From the NCBI RefSeq assembly GCF_020687205.1, contig NZ_JAJEQE010000002.1, positions 62,001 through 126,000 on the forward strand: a DNA stretch of 64,000 nucleotides. Reading direction: 5' to 3'. Origin of the DNA: Hominisplanchenecus faecis (lineage in GTDB: Bacteria; Bacillota; Clostridia; Lachnospirales; Lachnospiraceae). A program made the position numbers and the translations under genes. Shown in pieces: positions 7,175-32,248 of this stretch (positions are counted from its first letter, which is position 1; the number at the start of each line of letters is the position of its first letter). A model generated the notes under the pieces. The model saw only the letters and a list, made by a program, of their open reading frames with translations, was not told the origin of the DNA and did not search any database.

Positions 7175-7470
7175 CATTGATAGGAAAAGCGTTGATGAGG
7201 AATAGTACATTTTGACCAGAATACAGAAAGCTGTCGGGTGATGCGAGACAGTGGAAGGAAAGAATGGAACTGACCTTGGAGCAGCTGCCTGAAATCAAAG
7301 GAGAGTAGGAGCAGACGGAAGTCCACCGTTACAGGGACAGGATATAAGATGCAAATCCGTATCCGGTGAGAGTATGAATGAATTCATAAAATAGAGTGGT
7401 ACCGCGGAAGACTTGACCTTTCGTCTCTATGATAGCAGATATGTTATAGTGAGACGTAAGGTTTTTTTAT
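7175..7470 (+). ncRNA. T-box leader, leucine specific
   Basis: A tRNA-sensing leader that allows leuA to be read through when uncharged tRNA-Leu is bound. The T-box core AGAGTGGTACCGCGG is at 7393-7407; its TGGT (7397-7400) pairs with the ACCA end of tRNA. In stem I the specifier loop reads GAA-CTG-ACC before TTGGAGC, which puts the leucine codon CTG at 7270-7272. The terminator arm is ACCTT-CGTCTC (7416-7427) with GAGACG-AAGG (7451-7461) and seven Ts. The specifier agrees with the gene controlled, which makes the call strong. The exact 5' end is an estimate from the promoter. Confidence 0.92.
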
Positions 7471-9332: not shown

Positions 9333-9383
9333 CCCACTATAAAGTACTTGCCTGATGCAAAGTACAAAGAGAGGAGAGGTTTT

Positions 9384-10232
9384 ATGAGCAATATCAAAGA
9401 AGCAGAAGAACAGACCGGTATCAGTCGTGCAAATATCCGGTACTACGAAAAGATGGGCCTGCTGCAGCCAAAGCGAAATGAGAAGAATGGATATCGTGAA
9501 TATAGGCCGGAAGATATAAAGCGGATTCTTCAGATTAAGATTTTACGGAAGCTGGATGTTCCGATTGAGGAGATTAAAGATACCTTTGATCGTCCTGAAA
9601 TGTTTGGTAAGGTGATCCAAAAGCAGAAGGAAAGATTGGAAAAGCAGAGAGCGGAGCTGACGGATGCGATTGATTTCTGCGAAGAGATTAAAGAGGAAAA
9701 TCTCGGAGAGTTTGATCCACAGTACTATTTGAAGAAAATGGATGAAAAGGAAAAGAAAGGTGCCGTTTTTGCGGATTTGCTGAATGATTTCAAAAAAGTA
9801 TCGAAAGCAGAAGCAGAGGCACGCTTCTCTTTCAGGCCGGATACCATGTGCATGAATCCGGAAGAATTTGAAGAAGCATTATTGCAGTATGCCTCTGAAA
9901 AAGGAATGAAGATTGTGATAACAAAAAAAGGAATGTATCCGGAATTTACGTTGGATGGAATTCCCTATACTGCTTACCGGCACTTTTCACGTTTTGGTGC
10001 GATAATAGAATGTGAGACAACAAATGCAAAAACAGCAGAACATGAAATGTCGCCGAAGCGTTATCACATGTTTAAATGGCTGCATCGGATGGAACTGCCG
10101 ACGTTTCTTCTGATCTTGATACTGGTATTATTTGTACGCAGCGTTGAGGGATTCGTTTTGGCAATGATTTTTTATGCTATCTGTGGAATTGTGGCATATT
10201 CCAGATATTTTGATTATACGAGAAATTCCTGA
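9384..10232 (+). CDS. MerR family regulator with C-terminal membrane segments
   Basis: A 282-residue regulator. The first 70 residues form a MerR winged helix (TGISRANIRYYEKMGLL, then NGYREYRPEDI), followed by a dimerisation coil to about residue 105. The middle has no cysteine metal site and no recognised ligand domain. The last 45 residues hold two hydrophobic helices (about 238-254 and 256-273), so the protein is probably tied to the inner membrane, which is rare for MerR proteins. The ATG at 9384 has GAGGAGAGG at a good distance. Its own promoter has the 19-bp MerR spacing. The inducer and any other targets are unknown. Confidence 0.85.
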   Translation: MSNIKEAEEQTGISRANIRYYEKMGLLQPKRNEKNGYREYRPEDIKRILQIKILRKLDVPIEEIKDTFDRPEMFGKVIQKQKERLEKQRAELTDAIDFCEEIKEENLGEFDPQYYLKKMDEKEKKGAVFADLLNDFKKVSKAEAEARFSFRPDTMCMNPEEFEEALLQYASEKGMKIVITKKGMYPEFTLDGIPYTAYRHFSRFGAIIECETTNAKTAEHEMSPKRYHMFKWLHRMELPTFLLILILVLFVRSVEGFVLAMIFYAICGIVAYSRYFDYTRNS

Positions 10233-10244
10233 GAACAATCCGTA

Positions 10245-10282
10245 GGCATCATAGTTGGGGACTTTTGACACCCACATCATAA
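10245..10282. repeat. 38-bp intergenic repeat, copy 1
   Basis: This block is 37/38 identical to 31971-32008. Each copy begins and ends with the same heptamer CATCATA (here 10247-10253 and 10275-10281), enclosing a core with GTTGGGG and CCCA. It lies between the MerR gene and the galM promoter. Its origin is unknown. Confidence 0.75.
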
Positions 10283-10290
10283 TTATAAAA

Positions 10291-10403: not shown

Positions 10404-11459
10404 ATGGGTATTAAAGTAAGCGAATTTGGAAAAACTTCAAAAGGTAAGATTGCACATATCTATACACTGGTAAATGGAAAAGGTATGGCACTGGAAGTGA
10501 CCGATTATGGTGCAACCATGGTGTCAATCCTTGCTCCGGATGCAAAGGGCAGAAGCAAAGATGTACTGCTTGGATATGATGATGTGCAGGATTATGAGCA
10601 GGGAACCTGTTATTTTGGTGCAATCATCGGAAGAAACGGAAACCGGACAAAAGATGCACAGGTCGTGATTGACGGACATGTGTATCAGATGGAAAAAAAC
10701 GAAGGCGAAAACAATCTTCACAGCGGAAGTGAAGGTTACAGCAATATCATCTGGGATGCGTCCGTAGACGAGGATGGCAACAGTGTAAGTTTCCATCATG
10801 TCGGTGCAGACGGTGAACAGGGACTGCCGGGTACGTTTGATATCACCGTTACTTATACACTGACCATGGAAAACGAAGTGAAGATTCACTACGAAGGAAC
10901 TTCTGATAAAGATACGATTGCCAATATGACTAATCACGGATATTACAATCTGGCAGGACATGCAGCAGGAAAGATCGAAGATCACATTTTATGGCTGGAT
11001 GCAGATGCATTCACACCGGTAGGACAGGGCATGATCCCAACTGGAGAGATCCTTCCGGTTGAGGGAACACCGATGGATTTTCGTGCTGCAAAGAGCATCG
11101 GAGCAGATATTGAGGCAGATTATGAGCAGCTGAAGATTGCCGGCGGATATGACCACAACTATGTACTGAACAACAGCAACGGAACACTCCGTAAGATTGC
11201 GGAAGTAACCGAACCGGAAAGCGGAAGACGTATGGAAGTCTTTTCCGATGCAGTTGGCGTTCAGTTCTATGCAGGTAATTTTGTTGAGAGTATTCCAAAG
11301 GGAAAAGAAGGTGTCGTTTATCAGAAACGCTCCGGTCTCTGCCTTGAAACACAAGGATTCCCGGATGCAACACATCACGAGACGTTTCCGTCTACCGTAC
11401 TGCGTGCCGGTGCAAAATACGAAACGACAACCATTTACTATTTTTCAGCAGTAAAATAA
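10404..11459 (+). CDS. galM: Aldose 1-epimerase (mutarotase)
   Basis: Interconverts the alpha and beta anomers of glucose or galactose, a support step for sugar use. The 351 residues are the usual length. The fold markers are LEVTDYGATMVSI near the start, NRTKDAQ near residue 77, the catalytic histidine in TNHGYYNLAGH, and the catalytic glutamate in LCLETQGFPDATHH. The protein has no signal peptide and acts in the cytoplasm. No other galactose gene is adjacent, so it appears to be a single-gene unit under its own promoter. AGGAGG at 10387-10392 serves the ATG. Confidence 0.95.
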   Translation: MGIKVSEFGKTSKGKIAHIYTLVNGKGMALEVTDYGATMVSILAPDAKGRSKDVLLGYDDVQDYEQGTCYFGAIIGRNGNRTKDAQVVIDGHVYQMEKNEGENNLHSGSEGYSNIIWDASVDEDGNSVSFHHVGADGEQGLPGTFDITVTYTLTMENEVKIHYEGTSDKDTIANMTNHGYYNLAGHAAGKIEDHILWLDADAFTPVGQGMIPTGEILPVEGTPMDFRAAKSIGADIEADYEQLKIAGGYDHNYVLNNSNGTLRKIAEVTEPESGRRMEVFSDAVGVQFYAGNFVESIPKGKEGVVYQKRSGLCLETQGFPDATHHETFPSTVLRAGAKYETTTIYYFSAVK

Positions 11460-13841: not shown

Positions 13842-14092
13842 GATTGAAATGCGAAAGGCTTTGAAAGTGCAAAGTAGTTTCCTGTTTCCCGACAGAGAGG
13901 GAGGATCATCGGCTGAAAATCTTCCACGGTACAGACAGAGAGATGAATTTCACACTGGAGCTGCGTTCCTGAAGACAGTAGGGAGCGACGTACTTGTGCG
14001 TTAAACAACATTGAGTGTCTGTCAAATGACAGAAATCAGGGTGGTACCACGGAAAGATCGCTTCGTCCCTATTTTGGGATGGAGCTTTTTTA
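13842..14092 (+). ncRNA. T-box leader, phenylalanine specific
   Basis: A tRNA-sensing leader for the Phe-tRNA synthetase operon. The T-box core AGGGTGGTACCACGG is at 14038-14052. In stem I the specifier loop holds TTC (13949-13951) in the same setting as the leucine codon of the other leader in this window: codon, then AC-x-x-T, then GGAGC. The terminator is GCTTCGTCCC (14060-14069) with GGGATGGAGC (14076-14085) and six Ts. Uncharged tRNA-Phe should favour the antiterminator and so raise pheST expression. The 5' limit is an estimate. Confidence 0.92.
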
Positions 14093-30953: not shown

Positions 30954-31093
30954 CTCCTTTTTTTCAGTATTTCCGCTTTTTCCTGTTTTATCCGGGCAAT
31001 TGACCTCTGGACGTACCTGACAAAATGGTGTAAGATAGCATGGAAAATGATCTGCAGACGAGCAGCAGATGGATGATACTTCAGGAGGAAAAC

Positions 31094-31945
31094 ATGAACA
31101 GCAGTATCAGAGAAATATTAAAAGATAAAAAGCGAATTGTGATAAAGATTGGTTCTTCGTCCCTGACTCACCCGGAGACAGGGGCGTTGAACCTTACGAA
31201 ACTGGAAGTTCTGGTGCGTGAGATCAGTGATCTCCATAATATGGGCAAAGATGTGATTGTGGTATCATCGGGGGCGATTGCGGTCGGAAGAAGAGCTGCA
31301 GGTCTCGGACACCGACCAAGTGAGACAAAAGAAAAACAGGCATGTGCTGCAATCGGACAGGCCAGACTGATGATGATCTATCAGAAGCTTTTTTCGGAAT
31401 ACAATCAGCTGGCAGCACAGATCCTGATGACCAAACGTACCGTTATGGACAATCTGAGTCGTTTTAATGCACTGAATACCTTTCAGGAACTGTTAAAATT
31501 AGGGGCGATTCCGATTGTAAATGAAAACGATACGGTTTCCACGTATGAGATGCAGTTTGGTGATAATGATACGCTTTCTGCGATCGTAGCGGCATTGATT
31601 GATGCAGATCTGCTGCTCCTGCTGTCGGATATTGACGGTCTGTTTACGGATGATCCGAACAGCAATCCAAATGCGGAATTAATCCATGTAGTAGAAAAAC
31701 TGGATGACCATTTGCTGAAAATGGGAAAGAGCACATCTACAAGCGATGTCGGCACCGGCGGTATGGCATCGAAATTGACAGCGGCAAAGCTCGCTTCCGC
31801 AGCAGGCACGGATATGGTCATTGCAAATGGAGAAGATTTCCGAAATATCCATCGTGTGATCGAAGGACAGGACTGCGGTACCCTTTTTCTTTCTCACAAA
31901 AAAGATGAGTTTTATCTGATGGATTATCTGGAAAAAATGTTATAA
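31094..31945 (+). CDS. proB: Glutamate 5-kinase, short form
   Basis: Phosphorylates glutamate in the first step of proline synthesis. The 283 residues cover only the amino acid kinase domain: KRIVIKIGSSSLTHPETG, VIVVSSGAIAVG, PIVNENDTVS and the GTGGMASKLTAAKLA loop. The C-terminal PUA domain of longer enzymes (about 367 residues in E. coli) is missing, as in many clostridia. The ATG at 31094 follows CAGGAGGAAAAC. proA lies 858 bases downstream, with two unrelated genes and a repeat between. Confidence 0.95.
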   Translation: MNSSIREILKDKKRIVIKIGSSSLTHPETGALNLTKLEVLVREISDLHNMGKDVIVVSSGAIAVGRRAAGLGHRPSETKEKQACAAIGQARLMMIYQKLFSEYNQLAAQILMTKRTVMDNLSRFNALNTFQELLKLGAIPIVNENDTVSTYEMQFGDNDTLSAIVAALIDADLLLLLSDIDGLFTDDPNSNPNAELIHVVEKLDDHLLKMGKSTSTSDVGTGGMASKLTAAKLASAAGTDMVIANGEDFRNIHRVIEGQDCGTLFLSHKKDEFYLMDYLEKML

Positions 31946-31970
31946 TGCCGGGAATGTGCAAGTTGACTCT

Positions 31971-32008
31971 GGCATCATAGTTGGGGACTTTTGATACCCA
32001 CATCATAA
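31971..32008. repeat. 38-bp intergenic repeat, copy 2
   Basis: Identical to 10245-10282 except for one C/T change. It lies 18 bases before the start codon of the DUF896 gene and just ahead of its AAGGAGA site, so it is probably part of that leader. The flanks differ from copy 1. Confidence 0.75.
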
Positions 32009-32026
32009 AATAAGGAGAAATATAGT

Positions 32027-32248
32027 ATGATAACGGATGAAAAATTAGCAAGAATCAATGAACTTGCCAGAAAAGCAAAAGCAGAAGGACTGACAAGTGC
32101 CGAGACAAAAGAACGCGATGTGCTGAGAAGAGAATATATTGAAGCAGTCCGGGCAAACCTTCGCGGACAGCTGAACAATATTAATATTCAGGAACTGGAT
32201 GGAAGCATTACAAATCTTGGTGAAAAATATGGAAAAAAAGGACATTAG
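32027..32248 (+). CDS. DUF896 (YnzC-like) small protein
   Basis: A 73-residue helical protein of the DUF896/UPF0291 family: DEKLARINELARKAKAEGLTSAE, then KERDVLRREYIEAVRANLRGQ, a two-helix pattern. In Bacillus, YnzC belongs to the SOS-linked yneA operon, but its job is not known. AAGGAGAAATATAGT precedes the ATG. The stop lies inside the next gene (overlap of 20 bases), so both are translated from one message. Confidence 0.9.
   Translation: MITDEKLARINELARKAKAEGLTSAETKERDVLRREYIEAVRANLRGQLNNINIQELDGSITNLGEKYGKKGH

Follow-up and report, generated by a model that had tools for sequence, protein, structure and literature searches.

Bacterial MITEs are short, multicopy sequences that carry terminal inverted repeats and a target duplication of fixed length, and that lie mostly between genes; their interiors usually drift. 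The element described here is like them in all of these respects except the drift, but its body is conserved across genera with compensatory changes, and its parent insertion sequence was not found in the loci examined. The pneumococcal BOX and RUP repeats, small hairpin-rich intergenic sequences that are thought to be mobilized in trans, resemble it by description only; ends, targets and hosts differ.

The third system for comparison is Clostridiales-1 RNA (Rfam accession RF01699), which is catalogued as an sRNA and whose entire model is covered by the full copies described here; these copies add inverted repeats and target duplications. A table in Weinberg et al. (2010; PMC2864571) rates the Clostridiales-1 motif as probably RNA and not cis-regulatory, and the available part of this original description contains no mention of mobility. 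Titles and abstract openings of the literature on Clostridiales-1/RF01699 and on MITE or REP sequences in Lachnospiraceae and Butyrivibrio likewise do not describe the family as mobile. MITEs are a known kind of element and RF01699 is a known family; uniting the two appears to be new within the literature searched. A 38-bp repeat in Hominisplanchenecus faecis very probably forms the right terminus of a MITE-like mobile element that is non-autonomous and has the Clostridiales-1 RNA family as its body.

The two copies in the window

The window (the whole stretch of 64 000 nucleotides that was analysed) contains two 38-mers, at 10245–10282 and 31971–32008 (both + strand), which differ at a single base (C versus T), exactly as the original prediction had claimed. 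Their 35-mer core occurs twice in the window and gave no match with up to three mismatches in 100 dinucleotide shuffles. The limits of the 38-mer are not those of an element: its final ATAA is target site and lies outside, copy 1 shares 46 bp (10233–10278) with other copies and copy 2 is 61 bp long (31944–32004). The 38-mer does not stand as a unit of its own; a larger structured element has it as its right end.

Copy 1 (10233–10278, + strand) is a left-truncated element that retains 14 bases of the final hairpin arm of the body and the whole right end, which is the same as in 194-bp copies (for example L008 and L009). It starts directly after the stop codon (10230–10232) of a gene for a MerR-family regulator (9348–10232, + strand; Pfam PF13411) and is followed by the aldose 1-epimerase gene galM (10404–11459, + strand; PF01263). 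Its right flank, ATAATTA (10279–10285, + strand), occupies the expected place of a target duplication whose left partner has been lost, and fits the target consensus ATNNNAT (see below) in part.

Copy 2 (31944–32004, + strand) is a short element in which a left-end remnant, AATGCCGGG, is joined to the whole right end; the ends are as in full copies and the body is deleted. It lies between a proB-like amino-acid-kinase gene (31040–31945, + strand; PF00696) and a DUF896 gene (32027–32248, + strand; PF05979). The last two bases of the proB-like TAA stop codon (31943–31945) are the first two of copy 2. The flanks ATGTTAT (31937–31943, + strand) and ATAAAAT (32005–32011, + strand) each fit ATNNNAT but are equal at only four of seven bases, the three central ones being mismatched. 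As the left end of copy 1 is lost and the flanks of copy 2 agree no further, neither copy taken alone displays a target duplication.

Both window copies are deletion remnants. No match to RF01699 at the gathering score was found within the window, so both copies fall below this cut-off, since they retain little beyond the tail, which the model omits. The stubs fold no better than shuffled sequence (z of 0.88 and −0.38) and are most likely without any function of their own. As regards the window, the outcome is modest: two inert-looking stubs. Two T-box leaders in the window, at 7183–7431 and 13852–14073 (+ strand), score above the Rfam gathering threshold.

Genomic copies and architecture of the element

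Searched across the genome (3 266 661 bases in 104 contigs) with up to three mismatches allowed, the 35-mer core gave 26 dispersed matches, 14 and 12 on the two strands respectively; the reversed pattern gave none. As the flanks of these copies show, GGATTGTGGGAGTGCAACGCACGGAACAATCCGTAGG and more hairpins usually stand before the 35-mer, out to a left end, TATGATGCCAGGGTCAAAAG. The left end alone has 56 matches in the genome with up to two mismatches. Full copies in this genome are mostly 182–245 bp long and deleted forms 36–75 bp.

Terminal inverted repeats of 17 bp, GATRYYRGGGTCAAAAG, were seen as end pairs in this and other genomes. They are imperfect: the left end reads GATRCCAGGGTCAAAAG and the right end, on the reverse strand, GATGTTGGGGTCAAAAG, or GATGTGGGTGTCAAAAG in the subfamily of the window. 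A full copy runs from GATRCCAGGGTCAAAAG through three hairpins closed by a GATRCC/GGYATC stem to a tail hairpin, the outer arm of which is the right inverted repeat CTTTTGACCCCAACATC. Truncation is frequent, leaving only the right end in some copies (L001–L003) and only the left end in others (L048 and L051). Several contigs of the draft genome terminate inside element copies, which is what a repeat that interrupts assembly would be expected to cause, so that the element also matters for assembly.

Four copies (L006, L018, L031 and L044) contain, at varied internal positions, an optional hairpin module some 50 bp long that ends in CGACCGAAGCGGAGCGTAGA or a close variant; it is perhaps a second, nested repeat. 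The similar sequence CGACCGGAGCGAAGCGTAGA occurs in an element copy from another genus (L319).

Relationship to Clostridiales-1 RNA

The element body matches an Rfam family that has until now been listed solely as a small RNA. All eight loci tested matched RF01699 over its whole 166-position model with 79–151 bits, and this genome contains 70 matches at E ≤ 0.001, 40 of them above the cut-off of 48 bits; none was found in 14 control genomes. The Clostridiales-1 model ends at the GGCATC stem. The 38-mer starts with this stem and runs on into the tail, so that the model omits the right-end tail and with it most of the 38-mer.

The fold of the body was analysed with RNAalifold using 23 of 33 non-redundant full copies (L073, L123, L090, L217, L266, L273, L294, L298, L312 and L319 were left out by hand). 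The 23 diverse copies gave 33 base pairs, 18 of which show two-sided changes. The covariation score, for a structure derived from the same sequences as were scored, was 0.352, versus 0.151 when shuffled and 0.065–0.095 when slid; the slid control is the better guide, as relatedness of the copies inflates scores against shuffles. Two-sided cells numbered 90 versus 28.9 in shuffles, and none of 500 shuffles reached either the score or this count. The covariation is confined to the inner helices; the end-to-end helix of nine pairs is nearly fixed in sequence and has no two-sided change. One full copy (L284; −83.9 kcal/mol, z of −10.3) folds into a junction of three hairpins, which GATACA/TGTATC closes; the tail hairpin comes next, and the right inverted repeat is one of its arms.

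Inner covariation combined with near-invariant ends fits DNA ends that are recognized by a transposase around a body selected for structure. The interior fold may be kept by action as RNA, by a single-stranded DNA stage in movement or by repair between hairpin arms. The result is a testable puzzle: the DNA ends are nearly fixed while the interior maintains its pairs through compensatory change, as though its fold were under selection across genera.

The strongest competing explanation holds that Clostridiales-1 is a genuine sRNA gene, regulatory or housekeeping, which has multiplied, with the 38-mer as its conserved 3′ tail and mobility as an incidental trait. The strong structure of the body and its covariation across genera speak for such a gene, as does the published rating of the motif as probably RNA and not cis-regulatory (Weinberg et al., 2010; PMC2864571). 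However, 70 matches in one genome, 7-bp target duplications, frequently truncated copies and two orthologous loci that are both empty in a congener speak against it, and we regard it as rather unlikely. A putative sRNA role may nevertheless apply to some copies. Reassigning the Rfam family to a mobile element would keep its copies from being taken for dozens of separate sRNA genes in gut Firmicutes.

In RF01699 copies from other species (L098, L099, L100 and L103) the body is kept and the terminal stems are quite different, for example GTGATATA/TATATCAC; such differing stems around a kept body suggest that ends may have been swapped in evolution. In one of these copies (L100) the last hairpin is duplicated in a short tandem.

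Target duplications

Direct repeats flanking the element were assessed in two sets of end pairs. The 23 pairs from this genome, which include one overlapping double (L093) and one pair with weak ends (L122), agree in their flanks at a frequency of 0.714 for a length of 7 bases, versus 0.492 (sd 0.033) with shuffled partners, and a comparable excess is absent at lengths of 3–6 and 8–11. A second set of 78 pairs, nearly all from other genomes (80 short pairs less two too close to a contig end; a few overlap), gave 0.780 at 7 bases versus 0.551 (sd 0.014), again without comparable excess at 4, 5, 6 or 8. The target consensus ATNNNAT, which starts at 0.73% of window positions, fits 47 of the 71 duplications that match at 6 or 7 bases; these 71 come from 147 pairs, some of which were admitted because they have a duplication, so that only the 23-pair and 78-pair sets are tests. 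Against this, no matching duplication accompanies half of the loosely paired ends. Eight forms of 34–37 bp have duplications that match at 6 or 7 bases.

Two loci (L382 and L383, the latter from a single-contig genome) each show neighbouring tandem insertions of the element with one copy of the 7-bp target between them. In L383 it is as if one element had been inserted beside the other at the duplicated target.

Terminal inverted repeats, a 7-bp duplication of fixed length and many dispersed copies, present at some orthologous sites and missing from others (see below), bear out the view in the original prediction of a mobile, MITE-derived unit. The REP-like unit that it named beside this is a poorer fit. 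A REP or BIME palindrome moved by a RAYT (Y1) transposase would be short, mostly intergenic and hairpin-forming, as the element is, and 36-bp palindromic forms do exist; full copies, however, have target duplications of fixed length, which HUH/Y1 transposition is not known to make, and on this ground we rejected this origin as very unlikely. Spread through a reverse-transcribed RNA copy, with the body as template and the window stubs as 5′-truncated products, would suit the structured body and the several right-end-only copies (L001–L003). It was likewise rejected as having very little probability: left-end-only copies (L048 and L051) occur too, and DNA transposition is indicated by the near-invariant inverted ends and the fixed length of the duplications.

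Proposed mobilization and search for an autonomous partner

For the MITE-like element, a transposase supplied in trans would bind the 17-bp ends, cut the target with a 7-base stagger and insert the element, mostly between genes. Subsequent decay of copies would be through deletion, either internal or from one side. A deletion that joined the two GGGTCAAAA repeats, one in the left end and one in the tail, would leave the 36-bp hairpins; other deletions would give rise to right-end stubs, for example copies 1 and 2 of the window. This mobilizing enzyme is inferred, as no copy of the element with a transposase gene was found in the loci examined; for a MITE, a related autonomous element with matching ends is usual but not indispensable.

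The search for such a copy covered several kinds of locus. A transposase gene between such ends was absent within 4.5–5 kb from every locus examined; 148 loci screened for paired ends 400–5000 bp apart gave no transposase-bearing partner, and a screen of all loci for looser ends with a matching 7-mer, up to 4.5 kb apart, gave no autonomous one. The inner flanks of 149 exact ends comprised 51 ends paired with a duplication, 48 loosely paired without one, 27 at contig ends, four with a body motif and 19 others. Two genomes assembled as single large contigs had no autonomous partner among the places listed, and nine matching stretches in viral contigs included none with a second end. A few long end pairs were considered as candidate autonomous elements and rejected, being separate short elements or lacking a duplication.

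A broader possibility, which we put forward tentatively and consider somewhat doubtful, is that what is called Clostridiales-1 ‘RNA’ acts as a selfish element widespread in Lachnospiraceae. Its conserved fold, whether of RNA or of single-stranded DNA, would itself be required for movement or for insertions to be tolerated, and the element would be moved by a putative transposase at 7-bp ATNNNAT targets. If true, this would make it a structure-dependent MITE with no known parent.

Orthologous sites and gene context

Both insertion sites are conserved as gene junctions in a congener (G001). Its proB-like/DUF896 junction has a short gap with no element, and its MerR–galM junction, with 180 bp between the aligned coding parts, has no end-like sequence in the gap. 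The window copies are therefore either gains in this lineage or losses in the congener. Upstream of DUF896 the element was present in none of 11 relatives examined, eight of which still have the proB homologue adjacent (the comparison used 12 of 26 retrieved loci), and this wider absence favours gain.

The same sites bear on a shared operator or selected cis-element before galM and DUF896, the last of the readings in the original prediction, which we rejected as very improbable: both window copies do lie upstream of a same-strand gene, but the sequence is missing from both congener loci and the 26 genomic copies lie before or after unrelated genes, on either strand, in no fixed relation to them. 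Of the 26, 11 have a same-strand gene as their nearest neighbour to the right, 14 an opposite-strand gene and one no called gene, as counted with mechanical ORFs; seven of the copies overlap an ORF of at least 100 amino acids on one strand.

Distribution

The repeat pair is not isolated, as further copies occur both in this genome and in relatives. The 35-mer core was found in one of 61 genomes searched, this one only, so that its exact form is a lineage-specific variant. At the level of the class, matches to RF01699 occur in 15 of 391 genomes and exceed the cut-off in 12; class-wide copy numbers are lower bounds, as up to seven candidates were scored per genome. Within the same family, 48 of 299 genomes carry the right end GATGTTGGGGTCAAAAG exactly, and none of those listed has a reversed-control match.

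A scan of named genomes gave at least 118 stretches with a match. Most of the 80 listed among these are titled Lachnospiraceae or belong to genera that we take to be placed there, for example Coprococcus comes, Mediterraneibacter, Butyrivibrio, Lachnospira, Eisenbergiella and Oliverpabstia intestinalis, which suggests that the window, too, comes from Lachnospiraceae. Nine short faecal phage contigs carry partial matches, and a plasmid of Butyrivibrio fibrisolvens has three places that match one full copy.
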